A DNA stretch of 64,000 bases from Streptosporangium sandarakinum (GTDB taxonomy: Bacteria > Actinomycetota > Actinomycetes > Streptosporangiales > Streptosporangiaceae), in contig NZ_JACCCO010000002.1 of assembly GCF_013409935.1 (NCBI RefSeq), positions 1,426,001-1,490,000 on the forward strand. Direction: 5' to 3'. Both the position numbers and the translations under genes were made by a program. Each line of letters opens with the position of its first letter. The stretch's first letter is position 1. Shown in pieces: positions 3,086 through 64,000 of the stretch. Under the pieces are notes generated by a model. That model ran no database searches. It saw nothing but the letters and a program-made list of their open reading frames with translations, and had not been told where the DNA came from.

Positions 3086-4063
3086 TCAGGTGTCGCCCTC
3101 GAAGAGGCTGGTCACCGAGCCGTCGTTGAACACCTCACTGATCGCGCGGGCGATCAGCGGGGCGATCGACAGGACGGTGAGCTTGTCGAACCTCTTCTCC
3201 TCCTCCAGCGGGAGGGTGTTGGTGACGATCACCTCGGAGATGCCGGAGTTCTTCAGCCGGTCCACCGCGGGGTCGGAGAACACCGCGTGCGTGGCGGCCA
3301 CGATCACGTCGGTGGCGCCCTGCTCGTACAGCGCGTCGGCGGCCTTGCAGATCGTGCCGGCGGTGTCGATCATGTCGTCGATCAGCACGCAGGTACGGCC
3401 CCGCACCTTGCCGACGACCTCGTTCACCTTCACCTGGTTGGCCACGTCGAGGTCGCGGCGCTTGTGGATGAAGGCCAGCGGGGTGCCGAGGGTGTCGGCC
3501 CAGCGCTCCGACAGCCGGACGCGGCCGGTGTCGGGCGAGACGACGGTGGTGCTCTCCAGGTCGAGCTTGTCCTTGAGGTAGTGGACCAGCACCGGCATGG
3601 CGAACAGGTGGTCGACCGGGCCGTCGAAGAAGCCCTGGATCTGCGAGGTGTGCAGGTCGATGGACATCAGCCGGTCGGCGCCCGCGGTCTTGAACAGGTC
3701 GGCCATGAGGCGGGCGGTGATGGGCTCGCGGCCGCGGCCCTTCTTGTCCTGGCGGGCGTAGCCGAAGAACGGCATGATCACGGTGATCCGCTTGGCGGAG
3801 GCGCGCTTGAGCGCGTCCACCATGATCAGCTGCTCCATGATCCATTTGTTGATCGGACCGGTGTGGCTCTGGATGACGAAGGCGTCGCAGCCCCGGACGG
3901 ACTCCAGGTAGCGGGCGTAGATCTCGCCGTTGGCGAAGTCACGCAGGGTGGTGGGGGTCGGGTCGATCCCGAGGTGGCTCGCCACCTCCTCGGCCAGCTC
4001 CGGGTAGGCGCGTCCGGAGAAGAACATCAGCTGCTTCTCACCGGTCTGCTTCATGCCGCTCAT
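3086..4063 (-). CDS. prs: Ribose-phosphate pyrophosphokinase (PRPP synthetase)
   Basis: Makes 5-phosphoribosyl-1-pyrophosphate from ribose-5-phosphate and ATP, feeding purine, pyrimidine, histidine, tryptophan and NAD synthesis. The 325-residue protein shows FSGRAYPELAEEVA, ANGEIYARYLESVRG, the flexible-loop region GYARQDKKGRGREPITA, the catalytic DLHTSQIQGFFD and the PRPP-binding loop VLIDDMIDTAGTI. The start is ATG 4063 with GAGGAGG just upstream. It lies 76 bases downstream of glmU on the same strand, the usual glmU-prs order in Gram-positive bacteria, so the two are probably cotranscribed. Confidence 0.97.
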   Translation of the reverse strand: MSGMKQTGEKQLMFFSGRAYPELAEEVASHLGIDPTPTTLRDFANGEIYARYLESVRGCDAFVIQSHTGPINKWIMEQLIMVDALKRASAKRITVIMPFFGYARQDKKGRGREPITARLMADLFKTAGADRLMSIDLHTSQIQGFFDGPVDHLFAMPVLVHYLKDKLDLESTTVVSPDTGRVRLSERWADTLGTPLAFIHKRRDLDVANQVKVNEVVGKVRGRTCVLIDDMIDTAGTICKAADALYEQGATDVIVAATHAVFSDPAVDRLKNSGISEVIVTNTLPLEEEKRFDKLTVLSIAPLIARAISEVFNDGSVTSLFEGDT

Positions 4064-4139
4064 GCCGTCCTCCTCGCCTGACGGCCCTCGGTCGTCGTCG
4101 CGACGCTGCCGTGCCCGCCGGCCGGCTCGCTGCGCTTGC

Positions 4140-5591
4140 TCACGTCTTGCTCCCCTGCTGGTTTCCGGTCTCGATGGCCTTTTGGGCCGCCTCGGCCGAT
4201 TTGGTGCCCGCGCGCCTGCGCGCGACCCACCCTTCAATGTTGCGCTGCCGGCCCCGGGCCACCGCCATCGCCCCCGGAGGGACGTCGTTGGTGAGCACCG
4301 AGCCCGCCGCCGTGTAGGCGCCGTCCCCGATGGTGATCGGCGCGACGAGCATGTTGTCGCTGCCGACCCGGACGTGGTCGCCCACCGTCGTGTGGTGTTT
4401 CTCGGCTCCGTCGTAGTTGACGAAGACGCAGGCGGCTCCGATGTTGGAGCCCGTCCCGATCGTGGCGTCGCCCACGTAGGTCAGGTGGGGCACCTTCGTG
4501 CCCTCGCCGATCCGGGCGTTCTTCATCTCCACGTACGTCCCGGCCTTGGCCCCGCGCGCGAGGACGGTGCCGGGGCGCAGGTAGGCGTACGGTCCGACCT
4601 GGGCGCCGGGGCCGATCTCGGCCTCGACGCAGACGGCGTTGCGCACCACCGCGTCCTCGCCGACGACCGTGTCGGTCAGGGTGACGCCGGGGCCGATCTC
4701 GGCGCCCTCGGCGACGGCCGTACGGCCGTGCAGCTGGGTGCCGGGGTGGAGGACCACGTCGGGTTCGAGGGTGACGTCCACGTCCACCCATGTGTTGGCG
4801 GGGTCGACGACCGTGACCCCGGCCCGCATGTGCCGCTCCAGCAGGCGGGTGTTGAGGACGCGGCGGGCGAAGGCGAGCTGCACCCGGTCGTTGACGCCCT
4901 CCACCTCGACGTGGTCGGCCGCGACGTGCGCGCCGACCCGGTGGCCGTCCTCCCGGAGGATGGACAGCACGTCGGTGAGGTACTCCTCGCCCTGGGCGTT
5001 GGCGGTGGAGACCCGCTTGACCGCGTCGGCCAGCAGGCGGCCGTCGAAGGCGTAGACGCCGGAGTTCATCTCCCGGATCAGCCGCTGCTCGGGGGTGGCG
5101 TCCTTCTCCTCGACGATGGCGAGGACCGCTCCCGTCCCGTCGCGGACGATCCGGCCGTAACCGCGGGGGTCGGGGACCTCGGCGGTGAGCACGGTGACGG
5201 CGTTGCCGTCGCGGTCGTGCCGTTCCAGCAGCGCGGCGAGGGTCTCGGTGCGCAGCAGCGGCGTGTCGCCGTAGGTCACCAGGACCGTGCCGTCGATGGC
5301 CCCGGCGGTCTCCAGCACCACCCGGACCGCGTTGCCGGTGCCGCGCTGTTCGGGCTGGACGACGGCCTGGGTGTCGGGGCCGGTTCGCGCGAGGTGCTCG
5401 CGCACCCGTTCGCGCTCGTGGCCTATGACAACAATGAGCCGCTCGGGTTCGAGACCTCGAGCGGCGGCGAGCATGTGGTCCACGAGTGCGCGGCCGCACA
5501 GCTCGTGCAGGATCTTGGGTGTTTTCGACTTCATCCGGGTGCCCTCGCCGGCGGCGAGGACGATGACGGCGGCCGGGCGCGGCACACTCAC
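4140..5591 (-). CDS. glmU: Bifunctional UDP-GlcNAc pyrophosphorylase/GlcN-1-P acetyltransferase
   Basis: Catalyses the last two steps to UDP-N-acetylglucosamine, the precursor of peptidoglycan. The N-terminal uridyltransferase domain (about 1-230) starts AAVIVLAAGEGTRMKSKTPK and has the substrate motifs QPEQRGTGNAV and YGDTPLL. The C-terminal left-handed beta-helix acetyltransferase (about 255-455) shows hexapeptide repeats such as IGPGVTL, IGPGAQVGPYAYLRPG and FVNYDGAEKHHT, with the catalytic His region. The 483-residue length is normal. The start is GTG 5591 with GGGAG upstream. It heads a likely glmU-prs transcription unit downstream of tRNA-Gln. Confidence 0.97.
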   Translation of the reverse strand: MSVPRPAAVIVLAAGEGTRMKSKTPKILHELCGRALVDHMLAAARGLEPERLIVVIGHERERVREHLARTGPDTQAVVQPEQRGTGNAVRVVLETAGAIDGTVLVTYGDTPLLRTETLAALLERHDRDGNAVTVLTAEVPDPRGYGRIVRDGTGAVLAIVEEKDATPEQRLIREMNSGVYAFDGRLLADAVKRVSTANAQGEEYLTDVLSILREDGHRVGAHVAADHVEVEGVNDRVQLAFARRVLNTRLLERHMRAGVTVVDPANTWVDVDVTLEPDVVLHPGTQLHGRTAVAEGAEIGPGVTLTDTVVGEDAVVRNAVCVEAEIGPGAQVGPYAYLRPGTVLARGAKAGTYVEMKNARIGEGTKVPHLTYVGDATIGTGSNIGAACVFVNYDGAEKHHTTVGDHVRVGSDNMLVAPITIGDGAYTAAGSVLTNDVPPGAMAVARGRQRNIEGWVARRRAGTKSAEAAQKAIETGNQQGSKT

Positions 5592-5760
5592 GGACGAGGC
5601 TCCCTCGGCGTCGCGGCTGAGACATTGACGGAGCGGATGACCGAAGGTCGCCCTCCTCAGGGCATCGGACGGTCACCCACTCGACAACGTGAGGATACCT
5701 GCCCGCCCGGGAACCCACCCAGCCGACTAGCCGGAACAATAAAACCGTCAAAAGCCGTAG

Positions 5761-5832
5761 CTCCGGCACCAGGACTCGAACCTGGACAACAAGGACCAAA
5801 ACCTTGCGGGCTGCCAATTACCCAATACCGGA
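5761..5832 (-). tRNA. tRNA-Gln (UUG anticodon)
   Basis: The 72-nt cloverleaf is visible on the minus strand. The acceptor stem TCCGGTA pairs with TGCCGGA. The anticodon stem CAAGG/CCTTG encloses the loop TTTTGGT, giving anticodon TTG (minus-strand 5799-5797). The T arm is CCAGG-TTCGAGT-CCTGG and the discriminator base is G. CCA is not encoded. It stands alone between the desaturase promoter region and glmU; tRNA-Gln beside glmU is a frequent actinobacterial arrangement. Confidence 0.95.
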
Positions 5833-6083
5833 CCGACAGGGCCGCCCGAACCGGTCCGGGCACCCGGCCACCCCCCACGATACCGAGCCATCGATATCGA
5901 ACGCGCCTCGTTTCGGCTCCGCCTGCGCCACGGGAACCGGAAGGAGTAGGGGGACCCCGCCGCGGGCATGGACCGGAAGACGTCGTTTAGCAGATCCGCT
6001 CGGTGGCAGCAAGTCGTGAACCGACCACGGGATCCACCGAGGAGCGTCACCTTCTCCACATCCGGCCACAGGTATTCCTAACT

Positions 6084-6110
6084 TACGATGGCGTAGGTTA
6101 CGGTTGCGTA
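6084..6110 (+). promoter_or_regulatory. Tandem TACG-N4-CGTA palindromes in the desaturase promoter
   Basis: Two 12-bp palindromes, TACGATGGCGTA (6084-6095) and TACGGTTGCGTA (6099-6110), lie 15 bp apart in register, 46 bases before the desaturase start. The layout is that of a dimeric repressor or activator site. The FasR-like TetR protein encoded just downstream is the obvious candidate to bind it, since its family controls fatty-acid genes. That assignment is inferred. Confidence 0.65.
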
Positions 6111-6156
6111 GCCGGACGAAATCGCCCTTCTCCTATGAGTCGTATCGAGGTAGCCC

Positions 6157-7098
6157 ATGACCGTCCTTGAAGAGCGTTCCGCCCCCTCCCCGAAACCGGA
6201 CGTCGACCCAGAGCCCAAGACCCGACCCGAGATCATCACGTTCGGGGTGGTCGTCGCCCTGCCGCTGATCGCGCTCGTCGCCGCCGTGCCGCTCGCCTGG
6301 GGGTGGGGGCTCGGCTGGACGGACGTCGTCATCGCCCTCGTCCTCTACGTGATCACCGGCCTCGGCGTCACCGTCGGCCTGCACCGTTACTTCACCCACG
6401 GATCGTTCAAGGCCAAGCGCCCGCTGAAGATCGCGCTGGGCATCGCCGGCAGCCTCTCGCTGGAGATGTCGGTGCTCGACTGGGTGGCCACCCACCGCAA
6501 GCACCACAAGTTCTCCGACAAGGAGGGCGACCCGCACTCGCCGTGGCGGTTCGGCACCGGCTTCTGGGCGGTGAGCAAGGGACTGCTCTGGGCCCACATG
6601 GGCTGGCTGTTCGAGGCCGACCGGGCCAACCGGGAGAAGTACGCCCCCGACCTGGTCAAGGACCCCGACATCATCAAGCTGCACAGGTACTTCCCGGTGC
6701 TGGCGATCACCTCGATGGTGATGCCCGCCGTCCTCGGCGGCCTGCTGAGCTGGTCATGGTGGGGCATGGCGACCGGATTCTTCTGGGGCACGCTGGTCCG
6801 CATCGGCCTGCTGCACCACGTCACCTGGTCGATCAACTCCATCTGCCACGTCTTCGGCGAGGAGGTCTTCGAGTCGCGTGACAAGTCACGCAACGTGTGG
6901 TGGCTGGCCATCCCCTCCTTCGGCGAGTCCTGGCACAACCTGCACCACTCCGACCCGACCTGCGCCCGGCACGGTGTGCTCAAGGGCCAGATCGACCTCA
7001 GCGCCGGCGTGATCCGGCTGTTCGAGAAGCTCGGCTGGGCCCACTCCGTCCGCTGGCCGAACCCGGAGCGACTGGCGGCGAAGCGCATTGCCGCCTGA
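6157..7098 (+). CDS. Membrane acyl-CoA/acyl-lipid Delta-9 desaturase
   Basis: Di-iron membrane desaturase that introduces a double bond into stearoyl- or palmitoyl-CoA, tuning membrane fluidity. The three histidine boxes are clear: HRYFTHGSF (about 72), HRKHHKF (about 110) and HNLHHSDPTC (about 265). Hydrophobic pairs surround residues 28-65 and 180-220. The 313-residue length matches actinobacterial DesA3-type enzymes. The promoter carries a double palindrome at 6084-6110. A FasR-like regulator follows on the same strand after 301 bases. The electron donor (ferredoxin/oxidoreductase) is not encoded nearby. Confidence 0.93.
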   Translation: MTVLEERSAPSPKPDVDPEPKTRPEIITFGVVVALPLIALVAAVPLAWGWGLGWTDVVIALVLYVITGLGVTVGLHRYFTHGSFKAKRPLKIALGIAGSLSLEMSVLDWVATHRKHHKFSDKEGDPHSPWRFGTGFWAVSKGLLWAHMGWLFEADRANREKYAPDLVKDPDIIKLHRYFPVLAITSMVMPAVLGGLLSWSWWGMATGFFWGTLVRIGLLHHVTWSINSICHVFGEEVFESRDKSRNVWWLAIPSFGESWHNLHHSDPTCARHGVLKGQIDLSAGVIRLFEKLGWAHSVRWPNPERLAAKRIAA

Positions 7099-7399
7099 CG
7101 GCCCATCACGGAGTACCGGGGCGGCCCGCGTCACCGCAGCGCCGCCCGGCATCCCGTCCCAGAGCCCCGGAACCGCGCGTCCCCCCGCGGCGGCCCGCCT
7201 CGCCGTGTCATCGCCCGGCGCCCCGCCCGGACCCTCCGCAACGGTCTCCGGCGGCACGGCGCCGCCCGCCGGCCCGTCCAGGACCGCGCGGCGGACGGCC
7301 ACCGTGACCTCGGACGAGACGATCGACCGGAGTGCCGGAATCGACGCCGTCCAGGACGTGGTTCCCGCTTCGCGACCCGGGAACGCCATTATTAGAACC
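7099..7399. other. Intergenic region upstream of the FasR-like gene
   Basis: 301 bases without a convincing gene; the frames running through it are Pro/Arg/Ala-rich noise. The end holds a likely -10 hexamer TATTAG (7390-7395) five bases before the GTG at 7400, which fits a leaderless transcript for the regulator. No terminator of convincing strength was seen after the desaturase. Confidence 0.5.
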
Positions 7400-8356
7400 G
7401 TGAACGAACCCCGACGACGCATGTCAGGCAAGGAACGCCGGGAACAGCTGATCCAGATCAGCCGGTCCCTGTTCGCCGAGAAGGGGTTCGACGGCACCTC
7501 GGTGGAGGAGATAGCCGCCACCGCCGGCGTCTCCAAGCCGGTGGTCTACGAGCACTTCGGCGGCAAGGAGGGCGTCTACGCGGTCGTCGTCGACCGGGAG
7601 ATGGACAAGCTCCTCGGCATGGTGACCGAGGCGCTGGCGGCCTCGCACGCGCTGGTCAAGCTGGAGCGGGCCGCCCTCGCGCTGCTCGCCTACGTGGAGG
7701 AGAACAGCGAGGGCTTCCGGATCCTGATCCGCGACTCCCACGCCGCCTCCGGGACCGGCACGTTCGCCAGCCTGATCAACGACATCGCCAGCCAGGTCGA
7801 GGACGTCATGGTGGACGAGTTCGTCCGCCGGGGCTACGACCCCAAGCTCGCCCCCATGTACGCGCAGATGCTGGTCGGCATGGTGGCGCTGACCGGCCAG
7901 TGGTGGCTCGACGTGCGCCGGCCGCCGCGCGAGGAGGTGGCCGCCCACCTGGTCAACCTCGCCTGGAACGGCCTGAAGGGCCTGGACCCGAACCCCCGCC
8001 TGACCGCCTCCCGCGGCCCGGACCAGTTGCGGTCCCGGCCGTCGGAGAAGGAGCTCCGGGAGCGGGAGAAGGCCCGCGAGCGCGACCTCAAGGAGCTGGA
8101 GAAGGCCCGCGAACGCGAACGACGCGAGGCCGAGAAGCTCGCCCGCGAGCAGGAGAAGATCCGCCAGCGCGAGCTGAAGGAGGCCGAGAAGGCGCGGGAG
8201 CGGGAGCTGAAGGAGCAGGAACGGCTGCTCAGGGAGCGGGAGAAGGCCCGCGAGCGTGACCTCAAGGAGCTGGAGAAGGTCCGTCAGCGCGAGCAGCGGG
8301 AGGCAGCCAGGCAGACCAGGGCCGCCGAGCACCCCGGTGAGCAGCCGGGGCCCTGA
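7400..8356 (+). CDS. FasR-like TetR-family regulator with a long charged-helix tail
   Basis: TetR-type DNA-binding protein. The N-terminal helix-turn-helix region reads RREQLIQISRSLFAEKGFDG then TSVEEIAATAGVSKPVVYEH. The ligand domain has FRILIRDSHAASGTGTF and QWWLDVRRPP, closely resembling mycobacterial FasR (Rv3208), which controls fatty-acid synthase and binds long-chain acyl-CoA. Residues about 215-305 are an uninterrupted run of Glu/Arg/Lys repeats (EREKARERDLKELEKARERE and similar), predicted to be a single stable charged helix and absent from typical FasR. The start is GTG 7400, probably leaderless; ATG 7421 is an alternative. The neighbouring desaturase promoter is a likely target. 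Confidence 0.85.
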   Translation: MNEPRRRMSGKERREQLIQISRSLFAEKGFDGTSVEEIAATAGVSKPVVYEHFGGKEGVYAVVVDREMDKLLGMVTEALAASHALVKLERAALALLAYVEENSEGFRILIRDSHAASGTGTFASLINDIASQVEDVMVDEFVRRGYDPKLAPMYAQMLVGMVALTGQWWLDVRRPPREEVAAHLVNLAWNGLKGLDPNPRLTASRGPDQLRSRPSEKELREREKARERDLKELEKARERERREAEKLAREQEKIRQRELKEAEKARERELKEQERLLREREKARERDLKELEKVRQREQREAARQTRAAEHPGEQPGP

Positions 8357-8431
8357 ACCGATCCGGCGGGTGACGGCGGCCGTTGATCCGGCGTTCACGT
8401 TGAGTTTCTAAAAACCGGGCATTGTCGTCAT

Positions 8432-10495
8432 ATGTCCGTAGAAGCCGTGCAGGCCGACCCCGGAGAACCACCTCTTCCCCAGGAACGGTTCCTCAACCGC
8501 GAGGAGAGCTGGCTCCAGTTCAACCAGCGGGTGCTGGAGCTGGCCGAGGACCCCTCCCTGCCCCTCCTGGAACGGGTCAGGTTCCTCGCGATCTTCGCCG
8601 GCAACCTCGACGAGTTCTTCCGGGTACGGGTGGCCGGCCTCAAACGGCGGATGGCCACCGGCCTGCTGCTGCGGACCAAGAGCGGGCTGAAGCCCAGCGA
8701 GGAGCTCACCCGGATCTCCTCGATCGCCCACGACCTCGCGCTGCGGCACGCGGCCTGCTTCCGCGAGCTGCTGTGCCCGCGGCTCGCCGCCGAGGGCATC
8801 GAGATCGTGCGCTGGGACGACCTGGGCCGCGACGAGCGCACCGCGATGCGCAGACTGTTCCGGGAGCGGATCCGGCCGGTGCTCACCCCGCTGGCCGTCG
8901 ATCCCGCCCACCCGTTCCCCTACATCTCCGGGCTGTCGCTGAACCTCGCGGTCACCGTCCGCAACCCGGTGACCGGCCACACCGTCTTCGCCCGGGTGAA
9001 GGTGCCGAGCCGGCTCCCCCGCTTCGTCGCCGCGTCCAGGGACCGGTTCGTGCCTCTGGAGGACGTGATCGCCGCCCACCTCGGCCAGCTCTTCAAGGGC
9101 ATGGAGATCGTCGAGCACCACGCCTTCCGGGTGACCCGCAACGAGGACCTGGACGTGGACGAGGACGTCACCGAGAACCTCATGCAGGCGCTGGAGCGCG
9201 AGCTGCTCAAACGCCGCTTCGGCCCGCCGGTCCGGCTGGAGGTCGAGGAGAGCATCACCCCCGAGGTCCTCGACCTGCTGGTGGACGAGCTGGGCGTGGC
9301 CGAGCACGAGATCTACCGGCTGCCCGGCCCGCTGGACCTGACCGGCATGCACGCCATCGCCGACCTGGACCGGGGCGAGCTGGCCTTCCGCCCGTTCGTG
9401 CCCGCCGAGGTCGTGCACGTCTCCGACGACATCTTCGCGGTGCTGCGCGAGCGGGACGTGCTGCTGCACCACCCGTACGACTCCTTCGCCACGAGCGTGC
9501 AGCGCTTCATCGAGCAGGCGGCGGCGGACCCGGACGTGCTGGCCATCAAGCAGACGCTCTACCGGACCAGCGGCGAGTCGCCGATCGTGGACGCGCTGAT
9601 CGACGCGGCCGAGGCCGGCAAGCAGGTCGTCGTGGTGGTGGAGATCAAGGCGCGCTTCGACGAGCACGCCAACATCACCTGGGCCCGCAAACTGGAGCGG
9701 GCCGGCTGCCACGTGGTCTACGGCGTGGTCGGCCTGAAGACCCACTGCAAGCTGGCGCTGGTGGTACGGCAGGAGCCCTCGGGGGAGCTTCGCGCCTACT
9801 GCCACATCGGCACCGGCAACTACAACCCCAAGACCGCCCGCGTCTACGAGGACCTGGGCCTGCTCACCGCCGACCCGCTGGTCGGCGAGGACGTCACCGA
9901 CCTGTTCATCCACCTGACCGGCTACTCCGCCCACTCGGCCTACCGGCGGCTGCTGGTGGCGCCGCACTCGCTGCGCGGCGGGCTGGTGGCCAGGATCGAG
10001 CGGGAGGCCGCCCACCAGGAGGCGGGCCGCCCGGCCGGCATCAGGATCAAGACGAACTCCCTGGTGGACGAGCCGGTCATCGACGCGCTCTACCGCGCCT
10101 CGCGGGCGGGCGTCCCGGTGGACCTGTGGGTGCGGGGGGTCTGCACGCTGCGGCCGGGCGTCCCCGGGCTGTCGGAGAACATCCGGGTCAGGAGCGTGCT
10201 GGGCCGGTTCCTGGAGCACTCGCGGATCTACGAGTTCGGCCGGGGGCGCCGGCCGGAGATCTGGATCGGCAGCGCCGACCTGATGCGCCGCAACCTGGAC
10301 CGCCGGGTCGAGGCGCTGGTGAAGGTGACAAGCCAGCGGCAGCGGGCATATCTGTCGGGCCTGCTGGACCTCGCGATGTCGGAGGACGCCGCCACCTGGT
10401 GGCTCGACGCCGACGGCACGTGGACCCGGCACGGCGGCGAGGACCTGCAGGACCACCTGATCGGCACCCGGCGCTGGAGGACGATGGATGACTGA
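8432..10495 (+). CDS. ppk: Polyphosphate kinase 1
   Basis: Reversibly builds inorganic polyphosphate from ATP at the membrane. The 687-residue protein has the four Ppk1 domains: N-terminal helical domain starting [20 protein letters not shown], head domain, and two phospholipase-D-like C domains. It carries the catalytic histidine region [13 protein letters not shown] and [35 protein letters not shown] is also diagnostic. The start is ATG 8432 after a short gap from the regulator. The downstream Nudix gene overlaps its end by eight bases, so the two are translationally coupled. Confidence 0.96.
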
Positions 10496-54249: not shown

Positions 54250-54497
54250 GGGATGATCAGACGGGATCTCGCCCCTGAGCAGCAGAAAAGGCCCGGCTCC
54301 ATGATCTGGAACCGGGCCTTTCGTCTTGTGGAGATGAGGGGATTCGAACCCCTGACCCCTTCGATGCGAACACCGGTGGGGCGTACCGGGCCGACTCGTC
54401 GGGTGCCATCCTGTGCCGTCAGGTGCCTCGCCAGTGCCGTCTGATGATCCCTGCCGCGTCCTCGTGCCAGCGGGTTCGCTGACTTCTCACTGACTCC
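54250..54497 (-). repeat. Family A repeat, copy 3
   Basis: After a half hairpin GATGATCAGACGGGATCTCG (shared with 60859-60875) comes the hairpin AAGGCCCGGCTCC...GGAACCGGGCCTT, then on the minus strand the tRNA-3'-like arm TCAGGGGTTCGAATCCCCT and CATCTCC (54330-54336). GTGCC follows at 54403, 54413, 54423 and 54434: four boxes at 10-11 bp. The unit closes with GCGGGTTCGCTGACTTCTCAC. Confidence 0.75.
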
Positions 54498-55243: not shown

Positions 55244-55366
55244 AAGGCCCGAGTTCATGACCTGGAGCCGGGCCTTTCGTCTGGTGGGGTGTTCACGAGT
55301 ACGGCTGACCTGCAGCGCGAGAGCTACTTCGAAGATCGCCTCCCTATTCAGGAATGATCGTTTCCC
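55244..55366. repeat. Family B intergenic repeat, copy 3
   Basis: Hairpin AAGGCCCGAGTTC...GGAGCCGGGCCTT (55244-55276), GGTGTTCACGA (55288-55298), GATCGCCTCCC (55334-55344) and GATCGTTTCCC (55356-55366). It overlaps the last codons of the HIT-like gene. Confidence 0.8.
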
Positions 55367-55833: not shown

Positions 55834-55989
55834 GGTCGTTGACCCTATTGCCTCCAGGATTGCCCTTTGGCAACCCCCTACGAACCGTAGAGACTTCCGA
55901 TGTGGTGATCTTGCACTTTTAGGATCTTGCCAGTGCGCCGCGCGCCTTCGCCGGGGCAGGCCCCGGCCTGCCCCCAACCCCTGAGCACA

Positions 55990-56395
55990 AGACCAGCGAA
56001 CTGCCGAAGATCTGCCACCAGCACACCATCACCCTGCGTTCCGGCGACCTCGACCACCTCGACAAGCTCCGCCAGGACCTGCCCTACCTCAGCCCCTCGT
56101 GGCGGGGGACATACTCCGTGCCAGGGCGATGACGGAGGGGCTGAACGGCCGTCTCAAGGGCTATGACCTCGACCTTGGTGATCCGAAGAACCGGCTCGCC
56201 CATGGCCGCGCCGCCCAGACCATTCTGGTCGCGTTGCTCATCGCTGTTGCCAACGACCACTTCCTCGACCAGTGGCGCCACATCCACCAGCCCCCCAGCG
56301 GGCCCGACACACCCGCCGACACCTTCAAGATCCCAGCAGAGCACCTCGACCGCTCGCCGCTCACAGGCAGAAGCCGACCACCACCGGCCCGATAA
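55990..56395 (+). pseudogene. Transposase-like remnant, longer copy
   Basis: Frame 1 gives ELPKICHQHTITLRSGDLDH and QDLPYLSPSWRGTYS; after a frameshift near 56120 the second frame reads ARAMTEGLNGRLKGYDLDLG, DPKNRLAHGRAAQTILVALL and NDHFLDQWRHIH. This looks like the C-terminal part of an actinobacterial transposase-like or plasmid protein. A shorter copy with an internal deletion is at 60465-60680. No start, no intact N-terminus; 55834-55989 has nothing recognisable. Confidence 0.6.
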
Positions 56396-56481
56396 CCCGC
56401 ACTTCAGATCACTTCGCTGACTCCCTCCGGCCTCTATCGACTAGAGATGATCTGGTCGGGGGACCACCGCGCTAAGCATCA

Positions 56482-57992: not shown

Positions 57993-58133
57993 AGTCACTC
58001 AGCAACGCAGAAGGCCGCTCCCAATCTTTCGGAAGCGGCCTCTGACCTGGGTGGGCTGTTCACGAATAGGTCTGGCCTGGGATGGAGCAGAGGCAAGGAA
58101 GATCGCTTCCCAGGATCGACGTGATCGTTTCCC
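57993..58133. repeat. Family B intergenic repeat, copy 4
   Basis: Hairpin AAGGCCGCTCCC...GGAAGCGGCCT (58011-58042), GCTGTTCACGA (58055-58065), GATCGCTTCCC (58101-58111) and GATCGTTTCCC (58123-58133). Hairpin of the family A type joined to a family B body, showing the two families exchange parts. Confidence 0.8.
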
Positions 58134-58192: not shown

Positions 58193-59506
58193 TCAGTCGG
58201 GCAGAAGGACCCCGCGCCGTGCCCGCCGTGTGGCGGTCAACCCTCCGATCAGGCCGCTCACCACGCAGACCAGTACCAGCCCGACGTATTGCGGCAAAGA
58301 GTAGGCGAACCACGGCACGCCGGTCGCTGCCTTGCCCAGCACGGTGAGGCAGACGACCGCGATGCCCGTCCCCAGCAGTGTTCCAGCGGCCGTCACGATC
58401 AACGTCTCCCAGATCACCGCCCTGGTGAGCTGCCGCGGCTTGGTCCCCACCGTGCGCAACAACCGGATTTCCTCGGCCCGCTCGGTCATCGTCATCGCGG
58501 TCGCGTTCAGCACCGCGATCACGGTGTAGACCACACCCGATCCCACCATCATCGGTGCCGCCCACGCCGATGTCCCCGTACGGACCACGCCCGCCGCTGC
58601 GTCCGAGGTCGCCACGGCGAACAGGAAGGTGCACGCGAGCGCCACGGTCAGCATTACGGGGGACGCGGCCGACATCGCCCGGCGCGGCTGGGTGATCAAC
58701 GAAGCCCTGGCCAGCATCCCGGCGCCCGGGTCGAGTCGGGCGAGCACGGCTCCCAGCAGCCAACCGATACCGGCCAGCGCGATGGGTCCGAGCGCGGACG
58801 CGCCCACGGAGAGAGCCATAGCCGCCCCCAAGCCGGCCGGAAATGCGGCCACCGGCTTGACCTGCGGCACGAGATAGGCCAGGGCGCTGCCCCCGCACAG
58901 CATCAACACCCCGATGACAGCCCTCGGCCAGGGCAGCAGCCGCCGCTGCGCCGCGCTCTCCCGCAGTACTTCCAAAGGCCCCACGCGGACGGCCTTACGC
59001 GCTGCGCTCCGGGCCGCCAGCAGCGTCACGGCCAGCCCGACCACCAGTGCCATGATGAACGGTCCCGGCGTCACTTCCACCGGAACGCCCACCGGCGCCA
59101 GGCCGGTCATCCGCATGGCCTCCGCCATCGTCACGGCATACGGCACGGCCAGCACGCAGCCCGCCACACTCGCCAGTACGGCCAGTACCAGCGCCTCCGC
59201 CGTGACCAGCCACCGCACCTGCCGCGGGGTCATGCCGACCGACCGCAGCAACCCCCACGTCCTGCGCTGCCGCAGCACGTGCAGGCTCAACATGCCCGCG
59301 ATCACGAAGATCGACACGAAGCCCGACACCGCGGCCGACAGCACCAGCAACCCCATGACGCCGTTCAACTCGTCGCGCGCTCCGGCGCCGGCGACCAGCA
59401 TGCCGCTACCGCCGACCAGCATCGCGGCCAAGACCACCGCCGCGAACGACGCGGCGAAGCTCATTCGATTGGCCCGTACGTTGTTCCAGGCCAGGACGAG
59501 TGTCAC
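58193..59506 (-). CDS. ABC exporter permease, FtsX/MacB type
   Basis: 437 residues with about eight membrane helices in two FtsX-like blocks. Each block has the coupling motif: SLHVLRQRRTWGLLRSVGMT PRQ in the first (about 80-105) and TERAEEIRLLRTVGTKPRQL in the second (about 335-360). The start GTG 59506 overlaps the ATPase stop (GTGA). Together they form a two-gene exporter of the type that moves peptides, lipids or drugs out. No regulator or peptide gene is adjacent, so the substrate is unknown. Confidence 0.9.
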   Translation of the reverse strand: MTLVLAWNNVRANRMSFAASFAAVVLAAMLVGGSGMLVAGAGARDELNGVMGLLVLSAAVSGFVSIFVIAGMLSLHVLRQRRTWGLLRSVGMTPRQVRWLVTAEALVLAVLASVAGCVLAVPYAVTMAEAMRMTGLAPVGVPVEVTPGPFIMALVVGLAVTLLAARSAARKAVRVGPLEVLRESAAQRRLLPWPRAVIGVLMLCGGSALAYLVPQVKPVAAFPAGLGAAMALSVGASALGPIALAGIGWLLGAVLARLDPGAGMLARASLITQPRRAMSAASPVMLTVALACTFLFAVATSDAAAGVVRTGTSAWAAPMMVGSGVVYTVIAVLNATAMTMTERAEEIRLLRTVGTKPRQLTRAVIWETLIVTAAGTLLGTGIAVVCLTVLGKAATGVPWFAYSLPQYVGLVLVCVVSGLIGGLTATRRARRGVLLPD

Positions 59507-60228
59507 CGGCGGCCACCCAGTCGCATGCCGATCTGGTCGGCCGAGGGCCTGTCCAGGACGTCGACGATCTGCCCGTCGGTCAGGAACAGCACGCTGTCGG
59601 CCCGGGCTGCCGCCTGCGGATCGTGCGTGACCATGACCACCGTCTGGCCGAACGCGTCGACCGCTTCCCGCAGCAGTGCCAGCACCTCGTGTCCGGTGCT
59701 GCGGTCCAGCGCCCCCGTCGGCTCGTCTGCGAAGAGCACCTCCGGCCTGCCGAGCAGGGCACGTGCGATCGCCACCCGTTGCTGCTGGCCGCCGGACAAC
59801 TGCGCCGGGCGATGCCTCTCCCGCCCTTCTAGTCCGACCCGGTGCAGCAACTCGCGCACACGGGACGGGTCGGGCCGCCGCCTGGCCAGCCTGCTGGGCA
59901 GGATCACGTTCTGCCAGGCGGTCAGCGACGGCACCAGGTTGAAGGCCTGGAAGATGACGCCGACCTGGTCGCGGCGCAGCACCGCCAGTTCCTTCTCCCT
60001 CAAGCGGGTGACGTCCTGCCCGGCGATACGAACCGCCCCGGAATCCGGCCGGTCCAGCCCCGAGGAACACTGCAGCAGCGTGCTCTTGCCCGACCCCGAC
60101 GGGCCCATCACAGCGGTGAAAGTGCCACGTGGGAAGGCGACGCTGACCTGCCGGAGCGCGGCCACCTCGGTTCCACCCTTTCCATATGTCCTGGTCACTT
60201 CCTCAAGGAGAACCGCGTGATCACTCAT
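59503..60228 (-). CDS. ABC exporter ATPase (LolD/MacB type)
   Basis: 241 residues from ATG 60228: Walker A VMGPSGSGKSTLLQCSSGLD, Q-loop VIFQAFNLVPSLTAWQNVIL, signature LSGGQQQRVAIARALL, Walker B VLFADEPTGALD and switch VVMVTHDPQAAARA. It powers the FtsX-type permease encoded downstream with overlap. The stretch upstream (60229-60464) shows no regulator gene. Confidence 0.93.
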   Translation of the reverse strand: MSDHAVLLEEVTRTYGKGGTEVAALRQVSVAFPRGTFTAVMGPSGSGKSTLLQCSSGLDRPDSGAVRIAGQDVTRLREKELAVLRRDQVGVIFQAFNLVPSLTAWQNVILPSRLARRRPDPSRVRELLHRVGLEGRERHRPAQLSGGQQQRVAIARALLGRPEVLFADEPTGALDRSTGHEVLALLREAVDAFGQTVVMVTHDPQAAARADSVLFLTDGQIVDVLDRPSADQIGMRLGGRR

Positions 60229-60464
60229 GATCAGCAGCGTGCCGGAACCCGCGGACTTTAGCCATCCGGTATCTCCCCGATCGATCCCTGAGCCTCGCCG
60301 CACGCCTCAAGAAAGCACTGGGCACTGCGGGGCGAGCAGGCCGATATGTGCCGGGTGCGTGGTTGATGTGGGGATCCGGTGCAAGGCAGCTGGGGGCCGG
60401 ATTGGGACGTGGCTGTGGCTTGGTCACGGAAGTTGTGGCCTCCCCGACCTCCGATCACAAAGCG

Positions 60465-60680
60465 GCGAACTACCGAAGATCTGCCACCAGCACACCATCA
60501 CCCTGCACCCCGGCGACCTCGACAAGTTCCGCCAGGACCTGGCCTACCTCAGCCCTTCGTGGCGAGGGACGTACTCCACCGTCAGGGCGATGACCGAGGG
60601 ACTGAGCAGAGCACCTCGATCGCTCGCCGCTCACGGGCCGGAGCCGGCCACCACCCATCCCAATAACGAGCAACTCAGAT
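60465..60680 (+). pseudogene. Transposase-like remnant, shorter copy
   Basis: ELPKICHQHTITLHPGDLDK, RQDLAYLSPSWRGTYSTVRA and MTEGL match the copy at 55995, and the end GAGCAGAGCACCTCGATCGC matches 56335-56360. About 170 bases in between (NGRLKGYDL to the linker) are deleted. Not a functional gene. 60229-60464 and 60680-60840 hold no other supported feature. Confidence 0.6.
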
Positions 60681-60840: not shown

Positions 60841-60978
60841 GATCCCGCCTGATCGCGATGATCAGACGGGATCCCGTCAACTTCAGTCCGGCCGTCTCAA
60901 GAACGGCCCCTGGTGGGGTGTTCACGAATAGGTCGAGCGGACTGCGCTCCCCAAGGTTCTGAGCGGGGGATCGCCTCA
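60841..60978. repeat. Family B intergenic repeat, copy 5 (divergent)
   Basis: Hairpin GATCCCGCCTGATC/GATCAGACGGGATC (60841-60873, one mismatch), second hairpin GGCCGT/ACGGCC (60890-60907), GGTGTTCACGA (60917-60927), and GATCGCCTC at 60969, 52 bases on. The second GATCG box is absent. Confidence 0.65.
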
Positions 60979-61191: not shown

Positions 61192-61683
61192 ATGACGTTG
61201 GGCGAAGCATCGCTACTGGAGCAGTTGGCTGCGGACGAGGAGTCCGCCCGCGCACAACTTGAGTCGTTGCATGAGCAGGTGGCGACCCTGGAAGAGCAGC
61301 TGCGCGACCTGGCCACCACCCGGAGGATCGTCGCGCCGATGCTCGCCGGGCGTTCCCGGCCCGAGCAGGCACCGTCTGGCGGCACGCCTGAAGCCCCGAC
61401 ACACACCTCGCCAGTGAAAGCCGCGCCAGCGCCGAAACCAGTCGCCGGGCTCGACCAGCGGGTCGTTGTGATCATGGCGAGTTCCGGGCGGACGATGCGT
61501 GCCAAGGAAGTGGCTCAAGCGCTGGGCGAGCCCGACGTGCGGGGCCGGGTGGAGACCACCCGGGCGCGACTCAAGCGGCTGACGGCGCTCGGCTGGCTGA
61601 CCCAGCACGAGCCGGGCCTGTTCTCCATCGCCGCGGGCATCAATGGCCACGCGCCGGGGGGAGTCGCCGACGACGAGGCATAG
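61192..61683 (+). CDS. Coiled-coil plus winged-helix-like protein
   Basis: 163 residues from ATG 61192 with GGAGG upstream. Residues 5-50 form a heptad coiled coil (LLEQLAADEESARAQLESLH, EQVATLEEQLRDLATTRRIV), a Pro/Ala linker follows, and residues 95-155 look like a winged helix (VVVIMASSGRTMRAKEVAQA, RGRVETTRARLKRLTALGW). Such proteins recur beside integrase- or transposase-type genes in actinomycetes. A 13-bp hairpin follows at 61743. Role unknown; a DNA-binding accessory factor is plausible. Confidence 0.7.
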   Translation: MTLGEASLLEQLAADEESARAQLESLHEQVATLEEQLRDLATTRRIVAPMLAGRSRPEQAPSGGTPEAPTHTSPVKAAPAPKPVAGLDQRVVVIMASSGRTMRAKEVAQALGEPDVRGRVETTRARLKRLTALGWLTQHEPGLFSIAAGINGHAPGGVADDEA

Positions 61684-61742
61684 AGCCACACATCAGAGGT
61701 CAAGCGTTCCACAACGGTCGTGGGCGCCGGGCCGGACAAGCA

Positions 61743-61776
61743 GGGTGCCGCCGAGATTAGGCCCTCGGCGGCACCC
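61743..61776. terminator. Terminator after the coiled-coil gene
   Basis: Perfect 13-bp stem GGGTGCCGCCGAG (61743-61755)/CTCGGCGGCACCC (61764-61776) with an 8-nt loop, 60 bases after the gene. A second small stem CTGCCCTGC/GCAGGGCAG lies at 61881-61903, just past the end of the XRE gene on the other strand. Confidence 0.75.
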
Positions 61777-61957
61777 GAGGTTGCGTGAGCACCCTCCAGG
61801 TATCAACTGACAGTGTCTCGCGCACTCCTGAGAGTAACTCGAATGAGGACCTTTGGGGAGGCGTCGAGCCTGGATTTCGTCTGCCCTGCGATCGGCAGGG
61901 CAGGCGCGGGAAGGATCGACAATGCCCTCACCAGGGCGAGAAGGGGTCCGGGGCGGG

Positions 61958-62272
61958 TCAGTTTCCGCCGGTCCCGGTGGGCGACGCAGGCCACAGCCGG
62001 ACGGCCAGGCCGACCTCCAGTTGGGCGATGGTGGCCACGTCAGGCCAGCAGCGTCCGGCGGCCACGTCGTTGACGGTCTGCCGGTTCACCCCACTGATCT
62101 CGGCCAGCCGGCGGAAGCTCAGCCTTCGCTCGGTCATCACTGCTTGCAGAGTCGCGGCGATGGCCTGGACGACGGCGGCGGCCGGATGGCCGGACAGGTC
62201 CGCGTGGGGCCAGTTCTCCGGGTCGTCGGCCAGCTCCCGGGGAGAGCGGGAACGCCCGCGTCCTCCGACCAT
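61958..62272 (-). CDS. XRE-type small regulator
   Basis: 104 residues from ATG 62272 with AAAGGAG upstream. Central helix-turn-helix: VMTERRLSFRRLAEISGVNR, QTVNDVAAGRCWPDVATIAQ, LEVGLAVRLWP. N-terminus basic/Ser-rich with NWPHADLSGHPAAAVVQAIA. Divergent from the recombinase-like gene across the palindrome at 62314-62331, which it probably binds. Similar layouts occur in small actinobacterial mobile elements. Confidence 0.82.
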   Translation of the reverse strand: MVGGRGRSRSPRELADDPENWPHADLSGHPAAAVVQAIAATLQAVMTERRLSFRRLAEISGVNRQTVNDVAAGRCWPDVATIAQLEVGLAVRLWPASPTGTGGN

Positions 62273-62313
62273 GACAAACGACTCCTTTCGGTAGATGTCG
62301 TCGTCCTCCGTAA

Positions 62314-62331
62314 CGGCAGGTTGTCCTGCCG
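62314..62331. promoter_or_regulatory. Palindrome between XRE and recombinase-like genes
   Basis: CGGCAGG-TTGT-CCTGCCG, a perfect 7-bp inverted repeat with a 4-bp centre, 14 bases before the GTG of the recombinase-like gene (62345). It could be the operator for the divergent XRE protein. TATGGAT follows at 62333. Confidence 0.65.
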
Positions 62332-62344
62332 CTATGGATGGGGT

Positions 62345-63280
62345 GTGACCCTCGACGCGGAAACCTCGGCGAAGATCACCGGCTACCGGCCGCAGCAGGC
62401 CACGCCGGAATGGGAACAGATCGCCGGGCACGTCCGGATGCTGGTCGCCGCCAGCGCCAACCGCTCCCCCTACCGAGTGCAGCGGCTGCTCACCGCGACC
62501 ACCCGGCTGGCCGTGTGGTGTCACCGCTCCGGCCTGCCCGATGACCCGGAAGTGTGGCTGCGGCACGAGACGATCGACGCGTTCGTCCTGACCGGCTGCA
62601 CCGACCTGGCCCCGAGCTCGGCGCAGACCTACCGGTCCTGGCTGCGGCACATGCGCGCCATGCTGGCCTGGCTGGAACGCGGCGAACAGGTGCCGCCACC
62701 GATGAAAGCCCCCAAGAAGGTCAGCCCGCCGTACTCGCCGGCCCAGCTCGGCCGCCTTCGCGGCTGGGCCGAACGCCTGCCTGGCCAGGCTAGGGGCGAC
62801 GCTCTGGCGTTGATGGCGCTCGCCTGCGGCTGCGGTCTGACCTCTGGAGAAGTGGCCGCCGTCCGCACCGGGCATCTGCGCCGCTTGGACTGCGGCGCGG
62901 TCGTGGTCGCCGTCCCCGGCACCGAGCGGTTGATCGTCTGCCGCGCCGCCTGGGAGGACGTCCTGGCTCATGCCGCCGACCAGCCGGGCGACCGGTTCGT
63001 ATTCCGGCCCAGGCGCGCCGCCCGGCACGCCAAGAACCTGTTCAGCTCCTGGACCGCCCGCCACACCCCGACCGGCGGCCTGCCCGCCCTGTCGGTGCGC
63101 CGGCTGCGCTCCTCCTGGATCGTCGAGTTGCTGAGCGCCCGCATCGATTTGGGGGTGGTGGCCGTCGCAGCCGGGATGAGCACCTCCGCGCTGGCCCGCT
63201 ACCAACATTTCGTCCCCGTCCTGGACGAGTCCACCGCGGTCGCGCTGCTGCGCGGCAGGCCCGACGAACAGGCCCGTTGA
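62345..63280 (+). CDS. Tyrosine-recombinase-fold protein with an incomplete active site
   Basis: 311 residues from GTG 62345 (possibly leaderless). N-terminal SAM-like DNA-binding domain (QTYRSWLRHMRAMLAWLERG), C-terminal catalytic-type domain from about 140. The box-I Arg is replaced (ACGCGLTSGEVAAVR; expected GLRxxE). Box II reads SVRRLRSSWIVELL, with the second Arg kept but both His altered. Box III His is Met (AAGMSTSALARYQHF), while the Tyr is retained. Only Arg-II and Tyr of the usual R-K-H-R-H-Y remain, so it is probably inactive or acts only as a partner. Coupled by TTGA to the transposase-like gene. Confidence 0.75.
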   Translation: MTLDAETSAKITGYRPQQATPEWEQIAGHVRMLVAASANRSPYRVQRLLTATTRLAVWCHRSGLPDDPEVWLRHETIDAFVLTGCTDLAPSSAQTYRSWLRHMRAMLAWLERGEQVPPPMKAPKKVSPPYSPAQLGRLRGWAERLPGQARGDALALMALACGCGLTSGEVAAVRTGHLRRLDCGAVVVAVPGTERLIVCRAAWEDVLAHAADQPGDRFVFRPRRAARHAKNLFSSWTARHTPTGGLPALSVRRLRSSWIVELLSARIDLGVVAVAAGMSTSALARYQHFVPVLDESTAVALLRGRPDEQAR

Positions 63281-64000
63281 GTACGGCGAAGCCACGCGCC
63301 TGGCCGCCGCGCACCACCCGAGCCCGAGCCACCCGGCCCCGGCCACCTGCCAAGCAGACGGCACAGATCCCCGATGCCGTCACCAGCCACTACGCCCGGC
63401 TGCTGGACGACTCCGGCATCATGGCGTTGATCAACGACGAGCTCGGCCAGCGCCCCGGCCCGGCGGGAGTGCCGATCCGGGCGGTGCTCGTCTGTCTGAT
63501 GATCTCGATCCACCACAGCGGCAAAGCCACCCTGGCCGAAGCCTGGCAGCTGGCCGCCTTCTGCCTGTCCCCGGCCGCCCGACAGCATCTGGGCCTGGAT
63601 CCCGACCGGCCATCTGCCGACGATCCGCACGCCTGCCTGGCCGACAACCGGCGTTTCTACCGCGCCTTCGACCGGCTCACCAGCCTGCTGGACCCGGCCC
63701 GGCACGACCGTCGCACCCGCCTGCCCCAGCACGAGGCCGACCTGCTTGCCACCGCCTGGCAAGACGACGATCCCGACCACACCCGCACGCGGGGCCTGCT
63801 GCAAGACGTCGTCACCGCGCTCGTGCTCACACCGGTCCGCTGGAGCAAAGGCCGCGGCTACCTGGCAGGATTTAGCGGTGACGTCGGCATCGACACCACC
63901 GCTGCCCCGGTCTTCGCCCGGCCGCCCCGAGCTCGCCGCTCCGCCGGCGAATTGATCGCCTCCACCGAGATCACCGCAGGCTGGCACCACTCGGCCGGAA
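63277..64000 (+). CDS. DDE-transposase-like protein, 3' end beyond the window
   Basis: At least 241 codons, beginning with TTG 63277 inside the recombinase stop (TTGA). The N-terminal part has HYARLLDDSGIMALINDELG, VLVCLMISIHHSGKATLAEA and PDDPHACLADNRRFYRAFDR-like helices; near residue 205 comes FSGDVGIDTTAAPVFARPPR, which fits the first catalytic Asp region (hhDxT) of a DDE transposase, followed by EITAGWHHSAG at the edge. It may be the catalytic member of the module, with the degenerate recombinase as a coupled partner. The full length and the other DDE residues are outside the window. Confidence 0.65.
   Translation, partial: MSTAKPRAWPPRTTRARATRPRPPAKQTAQIPDAVTSHYARLLDDSGIMALINDELGQRPGPAGVPIRAVLVCLMISIHHSGKATLAEAWQLAAFCLSPAARQHLGLDPDRPSADDPHACLADNRRFYRAFDRLTSLLDPARHDRRTRLPQHEADLLATAWQDDDPDHTRTRGLLQDVVTALVLTPVRWSKGRGYLAGFSGDVGIDTTAAPVFARPPRARRSAGELIASTEITAGWHHSAG

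Follow-up and report, generated by a model that had tools for sequence, protein, structure and literature searches.

A candidate DDE transposon at tRNA and tmRNA 3′ ends that pairs its transposase with a disabled tyrosine recombinase

At the right edge of a 64,000-nucleotide stretch of the Streptosporangium sandarakinum genome (7.65 Mb; contig NZ_JACCCO010000002.1, positions 1,426,001 to 1,490,000; hereafter the window) lies a set of four genes, among them a tyrosine-recombinase-fold protein (TR) translationally overlapped by a DDE transposase. We propose, with a probability of roughly 0.65, that these genes are part of a DDE transposon targeting tRNA and transfer-messenger RNA (tmRNA) genes at their 3′ ends, and that in this element the DDE transposase does the moving while the catalytically dead TR selects the tRNA gene. 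That TR itself performs the recognition is suggested by sequence comparison and by analogy with a known transposon, as laid out below.

A four-gene set that ends beside a tRNA gene

The set opens with a 163-amino acid protein (WH; 61192–61683, + strand), which the initial annotation, made from the sequence alone, had read as a coiled coil joined to a winged helix, and for which the family scan gave no match above the cut-off. It is followed by an XRE-type helix-turn-helix protein (61958–62272, − strand; 104 amino acids; HTH_31 at E = 0.0004, below the cut-off) that diverges from TR (62345–63280, + strand; 311 amino acids, GTG start). The gap between these two genes holds a palindrome, CGGCAGG-ttgt-CCTGCCG (62314–62331), which in the 12 loci compared is present in some and imperfect in others; it is probably an operator. 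The DDE gene starts with a TTG at 63277 and overlaps the TR stop by 4 nt (TTGA). In a flanking stretch that extends past the window edge (L009, whose positions equal window positions minus 54000), the gene could be followed to its end at window-equivalent 65070 (+ strand; L009 9277–11070; 597 codons), and a tRNA-Ala(CGC) gene was revealed ~250 bp further on, just outside the window, on the opposite strand and with its 3′ end toward the DDE gene. The four genes, their order, the TR/DDE overlap and the palindrome beside XRE were all found where the initial annotation had placed them.

Neighbouring tRNA and tmRNA genes face the element with their 3′ ends

The location was compared across 71 loci with a DDE match (73 before two duplicate contigs were dropped). 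A tRNA or tmRNA gene lies within 128–502 bp of the DDE 3′ end in 48 of them, and in all 48 the 3′ end of that gene and the right end (R-end) of the element face each other, that is, the insertion sits at a tRNA or tmRNA 3′ end. The targets comprise ten tRNA isotypes plus tmRNA: tRNA-Ala is the commonest (19 loci; CGC 15, GGC 3, TGC 1), followed by tRNA-Leu (11; CAG 8, GAG 2, TAA 1) and tRNA-Ser (6; CGA 4, GGA 2), while Gly(CCC), Met(CAT), Tyr(GTA) and tmRNA account for two loci each and Thr(TGT), Lys(TTT), Phe(GAA) and Val(CAC) for one each. The element inserts at a point two base pairs inside the acceptor stem, on its 3′ strand, and ~10 bp away from the GGATTY (Y, C or T) of the T-stem/T-loop, which leaves the tRNA intact. 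Relative to the T-loop the register of the R-end is exact in 34/48 loci; a tolerance of 1 nt raises this to 43 and one of 2 nt to 46, leaving L121 and L183 as the outliers.

As a control we used 20 stretches of 4.7–8 kb around IS1182-family matches, chosen from 40 places listed; six of the 20 were not relocated by tblastn. Only one of the 20 contains a tRNA, and a search of the control stretches with the TR and DDE profiles gave no match. The choice of isotype also follows descent: on a TR tree of 37 rows the isotype changes 14 times, against a mean of 20.6 and a minimum of 17 for shuffled labels, and on thinned rows the 14 changes compare with 17.7 after shuffling (2/300 shuffles reach 14).

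Inverted repeats, a 5-bp target duplication and empty sites

Inverted repeats of 14 bp, of the GGGGTGTTCACGAA type, delimit the element, which is flanked by a 5-bp target duplication. Its left end (L-end) reads GGGGTGTTCACGAA/G, and in 22 of the 26 L-ends listed GATCGYTTCCC occurs twice further in, at ~48 and 70 bp, a spacing of 22 bp. The R-end reads ...TTTCGTGAACACCCC, with clade variants, and is followed by five bases, two acceptor-stem bases and then the rest of the tRNA. A 7-bp duplication, our first reading, was replaced by 5 bp plus a GG that starts each end because of a plasmid copy (L248) and because the two inverted repeats were unequal in length; the 7-mer had recurred at both sides in 7/48 loci in a strict test (shuffled-letter control: mean 0.6, maximum 3) and in 8/48 when an L-end motif was required (24 loci with the motif; control: mean 1.36, maximum 5).

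The 5-bp duplication was assessed in 54 loci, namely the 48 tRNA loci together with L248–L251, L104 and L011, whose R-ends were located by hand. An L-end motif with at most three mismatches, from a motif set that includes one string taken from L094/L095 themselves, was found in 40 of the 54, and in 15 of these 40 it is preceded by exactly the five bases found at the R-end. When the 5-mer of another locus was used instead, the mean was 1.48 and the maximum 7, and none of 5000 trials reached 15. At two or fewer mismatches to the motif, 14 of 18 loci have a matching 5-mer. The left flank in several arrays is the R-end of an older element.

Both the inverted repeats and the empty sites that the initial annotation had thought worth looking for were found. 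In L220 and L221, from a genus (g85) that is probably Streptomyces, a terminator-like sequence is followed by a single TCTGTGG and then by tRNA-Ala, and the L180 element of the same genus has TCTGTGG on each side; these empty sites came from a search with the tRNA side of L180, the search with its left flank having returned matches without a tRNA. Among 29 other sites of genus g85, an R-end-like sequence abuts tRNA-Ala(CGC) in seven (L219, L222, L231, L236, L239, L241 and L247), perhaps as solo-end remnants. The R-end itself carries a strong hairpin (GATCCCGCCTGATC..GATCAGACGGGATC; L009 11245–11277), present in many loci of the clade found at tRNA-Ala (Ala clade), which resembles the hairpin beside the uninserted tRNA-Ala genes of L220 and L221.

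Copies outside tRNA genes

TR with DDE beside it also occurs in six Streptomyces plasmid records, which represent four distinct sites (L251, L252 and L253 have flanking genes in common). No tRNA lies beside the R-end in plasmid loci L248–L251. All four plasmid sites nevertheless have GGATT[CT] after the R-end 5-mer, at 10 nt in L249 and L251 and at 11 nt in L248 and L250, compared with 10 nt at tRNA-Ala, where GGATTY is the T-stem/T-loop. The copy in L249 (NZ_CP108257.1, about 3451–8937) has TTGCA on each side and lies downstream of type I-E cas genes, among CRISPR (clustered regularly interspaced short palindromic repeats) repeats, apparently inside a spacer. A chromosomal copy, L011, has TGGTC on each side; no empty site for it was found in its genus. 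Judging from the sequence of the four plasmid sites, it looks as though what is recognised is a T-arm at fixed spacing, and as though insertion does not strictly depend on a complete tRNA gene. The plasmid records examined annotate TR and DDE only as 'hypothetical protein'.

A recombinase stripped of its catalytic residues and a transposase with an intact triad

The window TR has no Pfam or NCBIfam match, and phage records gave no TR match at E 1e-5. Its affiliation rests on a 20-row TR profile, which matches Pyrococcus abyssi XerA (4a8e) over the catalytic domain (E = 7.7e-7). The AlphaFold2 (AF2) model of TR is poor (predicted local distance difference test, pLDDT, 60), and the best Protein Data Bank match that Foldseek gave for it, Cre (E 0.0049, template-modelling score 0.20), was not used as proof. 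In the XerA register the box-I arginine is replaced by T166, the HxxR motif reads R-R-L-R (His to R252, Arg kept as R255) and the LGH motif reads A-G-M (His to M278), so that the box-I arginine and both box histidines are missing, as the initial annotation had claimed. Tyr286 has been kept; in the alignment it falls no more than one residue from the catalytic tyrosine.

This loss is shared. In a census of 58 unique near-full TR domains taken from the loci, the box-I arginine is kept in 5, the HxxR histidine in 1, the second arginine (Arg-II) in 55 and the tyrosine in 26; the R-H-R-Y set is complete in none, and likewise none has the R-H-R-(H/W)-Y residues of an active tyrosine integrase.

In contrast to TR, the DDE protein has kept its putative active site, with D206, D306 and E512 invariant in all 16 aligned relatives, down to 23% identity. 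Together with terminal inverted repeats and a short target duplication, this triad gives the element the general features of DDE transposition. The family of the transposase is less clear. The window DDE has no NCBIfam match, and Pfam gave only a sub-threshold DUF4034; a TnsB-type rve domain was found neither in the window protein nor in a Pfam scan of the 16 members. Three of the 16 match NCBIfam transpos_IS1182 (best E 1.7e-7) and one matches Pfam DDE_Tnp_1_6 weakly (E 0.028), whereas the window DDE does not match, a profile comparison with hhalign gives a probability of 24.6 over 62 columns, and the DDE members do not reach the curated NF033551 cut-off of 270 bits. A PF13751 search of the host genome gave no match. 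At most, DDE is a distant relative of IS1182.

TR and DDE travel together

A search for related loci gave 19, from Microtetraspora, Nonomuraea, Streptosporangium, Spongiactinospora, Sphaerisporangium and Streptomyces. All four genes are near full length (≥85% of the query) and in the same order in eight loci including the window, and others are broken or cut by contig ends. Of 200 genomes of the family Streptosporangiaceae, 27 contain TR and 38 contain DDE, and 25 of the 27 TR-bearing genomes also have DDE (the exceptions are G177 and G188; in G071 and G108, counted within the 25, the matches are remnants and not adjacent). In samples of the class and phylum TR occurs in 19/394 genomes and DDE in 19/396, and the two recur as neighbours across many families of the phylum. 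The co-occurrence on which the initial annotation's claim of a module depended is therefore borne out, and the four-gene set is a real one, part of a transposon and not a lone decayed copy.

The accessory genes are less constant. XRE is found in the Ala clade, in the clade at tRNA-Leu (Leu clade) and in some others, and WH mainly in the Ala clade and weakly in L095. In a third clade neither was detected, and these elements, with TR and DDE the only genes of the set detected, are still at tRNAs. Two or three tandem TR matches precede a single DDE in L095, L103, L186, L192, L202, L203, L204 and L205.

Proposed mechanism and alternatives

In the mechanism that we favour, DDE would cut and join the element ends, a role assigned to it because its triad is intact and the target duplication is short. 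TR, an integrase without chemistry, would bind that half of the tRNA gene which holds the T-arm and would position the DDE complex at a fixed spacing, as does TnsF, the inactivated tyrosine-recombinase target selector of the Tn7-like DDE transposon Tn6022 (PMC10293859). We cast TR as the selector because it descends from integrases, because it is regularly paired with DDE even where XRE and WH were not found, and because of the TnsF precedent. XRE would repress the operon from the shared palindrome and WH would act as an accessory protein, mainly in the Ala clade. After insertion the R-end hairpin would replace the terminator of the tRNA, and cargo between the L-end and the genes, in the window an ABC (ATP-binding cassette) transporter, would ride along. 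The initial annotation had suggested that the recombinase fold, paired with a nuclease of another type, may by now do no more than recognise the target or the ends. This idea is supported; neither relatives with complete active sites nor a lack of co-occurrence, the two observations it had named as fatal, was found.

Several observations weigh against this mechanism or against parts of it. No facing tRNA lies in range in 23 of the 71 loci. In nine of these the contig ends within 860 bp of DDE; L101 has a tRNA and a decayed DDE, L105 a tRNA-like sequence directly after the R-end, and L104 sits at a 3′-half fragment of tRNA-Ala with GCGGT on each side. For L109, L112, L120, L122, L123, L190, L202–L205 and L209 the lack of a tRNA is unexplained, although a tmRNA lies 1.7 kb from L202 and 4 kb from L204. 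The L011 site has no GGATTY T-arm motif. At the element ends, L091, L100 and L187 have an L-end motif with a mismatched 5-mer, the 5-mer of L248 matches only after a 1-nt shift, and the L-end nearest the four genes in the window is flanked by CTGGT against TGGGT at the right end. DDE has no confident Pfam family, and its AF2 model is poor (pLDDT 44), as is that of TR, leaving the RNase-H fold of DDE unconfirmed. Third-clade relatives share 58–76% (TR) and 55–69% (DDE) identity and are found at tRNAs for Thr, Lys, Phe and Ala, and specificity must therefore be quickly changed or loose. Finally, the target is tracked as well by the DDE tree as by the TR tree, with 14 changes on each, and the trees therefore do not tell which protein reads the tRNA.

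The last point bears directly on the strongest alternative, an unlikely one in our estimate, namely that DDE itself reads the tRNA T-arm and that TR is an accessory acting in end binding, complex assembly, regulation or immunity. Consistent with this, and again at odds with TR as the selector, L195 has an intact DDE at tRNA-Leu(CAG) and no recognisable TR in 16 kb, and the single tRNA-bearing control copy, the IS1182-family transposase of L280 (3014–4465), has a tRNA-Glu(TTC) facing it at 87 bp and no TR-profile match; L280 is a possible second tRNA-adjacent lineage. However, none of the other 19 IS1182-family control stretches contains a tRNA, TR may have been lost from L195, and in the third clade no component besides TR and DDE was detected. 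Tyrosine integrases, moreover, are the classical readers of tRNA 3′ ends.

We consider it improbable that TR is instead an active recombinase, if an unusual one, responsible for integration, excision or resolution of the element, with DDE as the accessory. The retention of Arg-II and, in fewer than half of the domains, of the tyrosine could be read in this way, as could three members (L110, L185 and L192) that jointly keep the box-I arginine, Arg-II and the tyrosine. Against it, 53 of the 58 domains have a residue other than arginine in box I and 57 one other than histidine in HxxR, and the tyrosine is absent from TR of the tRNA-Leu clade (L094/L095/L102/L103) and of the third clade, whereas the DDE triad is intact in all 16 aligned members and the inverted-repeat ends with a short, site-variable duplication are those expected of a DDE enzyme. 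Nor is there much to be said for a chance remnant of decayed islands at an integration hotspot, a reading that we regard as highly implausible: the window array does include a number of remnant ends as well as a 44-bp tRNA duplication of the integrase type, and many of the retrieved copies are broken, but eight loci keep the four genes near full length, the ends and duplications are conserved with the same geometry over many families, and copies occur on six plasmid records.

Relation to known systems

The closest known system is Tn6022 with TnsF, beside which Tsy is also named in PMC10293859. According to the same paper, Tn6022 requires TnsA, TnsB, TnsC and TniQ together with a 498-amino acid zinc-finger TnsF, and its target is comM. 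The likeness lies in an inactivated tyrosine-recombinase domain beside a DDE transposase. The differences are that TnsF has ~500 residues with N-terminal zinc fingers whereas TR has 311 and no Pfam match, that the target here is a tRNA or tmRNA gene, and that the smallest members here show only a single DDE and TR. General scans of the four window proteins gave no match to an AAA+ TnsC or to TniQ/TnsD, with the limit that no search aimed at TniQ was made and that cargo open reading frames were scanned in part.

Islands of tyrosine integrases resemble the element in the XerA-like fold of TR and in the tRNA 3′-end location; they differ in that TR has lost its catalytic residues and that a 5-bp duplication with inverted repeats takes the place of a long shared att core, such as the 44 bp of a separate island in the window. 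CRISPR-associated and other Tn7-like transposons are likewise DDE elements found near tRNA genes. Those sited at tRNAs use TniQ/TnsD or a guide RNA together with the AAA+ protein TnsC. Among recorded targets of Tn7-like transposons are tRNA-Val and tRNA-Leu (PMC10293859).

The literature searched, with most subscription journals and preprints outside its scope, held no description of the element. Within that literature the dead-integrase principle is known from Tn6022 and TnsF, but this transposase, its small gene set and its tRNA/tmRNA target go undescribed, and there is a fair chance that the element deserves a class of its own. Broader still is the idea, on which we would place about even odds, of a separate phylum-wide transposon superfamily in which a single DDE and a dead integrase reading the tRNA T-arm, its isotype re-settable through evolution of the integrase-like protein, form a modular, guide-RNA-free two-protein system of targeted insertion that carries cargo, including defence genes in places, to the 3′ ends of tRNAs. 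If the proposed mechanism holds, the principle of a disarmed integrase steering a DDE transposase would exist outside Tn7, apparently without AAA+ or TniQ proteins; an element family with TR and DDE annotated as hypothetical proteins would be explained; and a small two-gene system would be at hand for direct tests of protein-based target choice. It would also provide a second, non-integrase route for island build-up at tRNA genes.

Cargo and nested elements

Ten proteins, hand-picked from open reading frames beside or inside elements, most of which are not delimited at both ends, were scanned for defence functions, and eight of them match PADLOC models. The matches include type I, II and III methyltransferases and a restriction enzyme, with weaker matches to an ATPase and to prokaryotic Argonaute (pAgo); two proteins gave none. 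In this hand-picked sample some elements thus lie beside or carry defence-type genes. Also among the PADLOC matches, a cyclase of the CBASS (cyclic oligonucleotide-based antiphage signalling system) type with a 2TM/Cap15-like effector (L203, 7954–9745) follows directly downstream of a TR-TR-TR-DDE array with no tRNA nearby, possibly outside the element.

The window itself contains three L-ends, at 55286, 58053 and 60915. The second of these (58053–58066, + strand), with two mismatches to the consensus and GATCGYTTCCC 48 and 70 bp inside, is preceded by TGGGT (58048–58052, + strand), identical to the right copy at window-equivalent 65314–65318. The third (GGGGTGTTCACGAA; 60915–60928, + strand) lies directly left of the four-gene set and is abutted by the R-end of an older element (TCAAGAACGGCCC) with CTGGT at the internal junction (60897–60914, + strand); its paired internal repeats were not found. 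We took 58053 as the probable left end because its flank matches the right end, while 60915 is mismatched and without paired repeats. The current transposon is therefore probably 58053–65313 (7261 bp), with the ABC transporter inside; most simply, a tandem fusion of two elements would have given the composite that, together with the transporter, forms the current unit. The transporter (58193–60303, − strand; ATPase 59503–60303, permease from ~59510 down to 58193; assigned from the translations) is read as cargo, and the L020 array holds a stretch related to this region. Between the transporter and the internal junction lies a 3′ remnant of an older DDE gene (60437–60607, + strand). Further left lie an L-end of an older element (GGGGTGTTCACGAG; 55286–55299, + strand), with CTGGT before it, and a DDE 3′ remnant at about 55961–56401.

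Left of these remnants, at 54328–54371 (+ strand), the 3′ half of tRNA-Ala(CGC), whose original is at window-equivalent 65317–65360, is repeated exactly over 44 bp. We rejected the view of the four-gene element as a classical integrase island, and assign this duplication to a different one because the transposon's own junctions carry a 5-bp repeat; the copy is an att-like footprint of a separate classical integrase island at the same tRNA hotspot. Comparable tRNA copies of 44–48 bp are found in L014 (1672) and L017 (7965).

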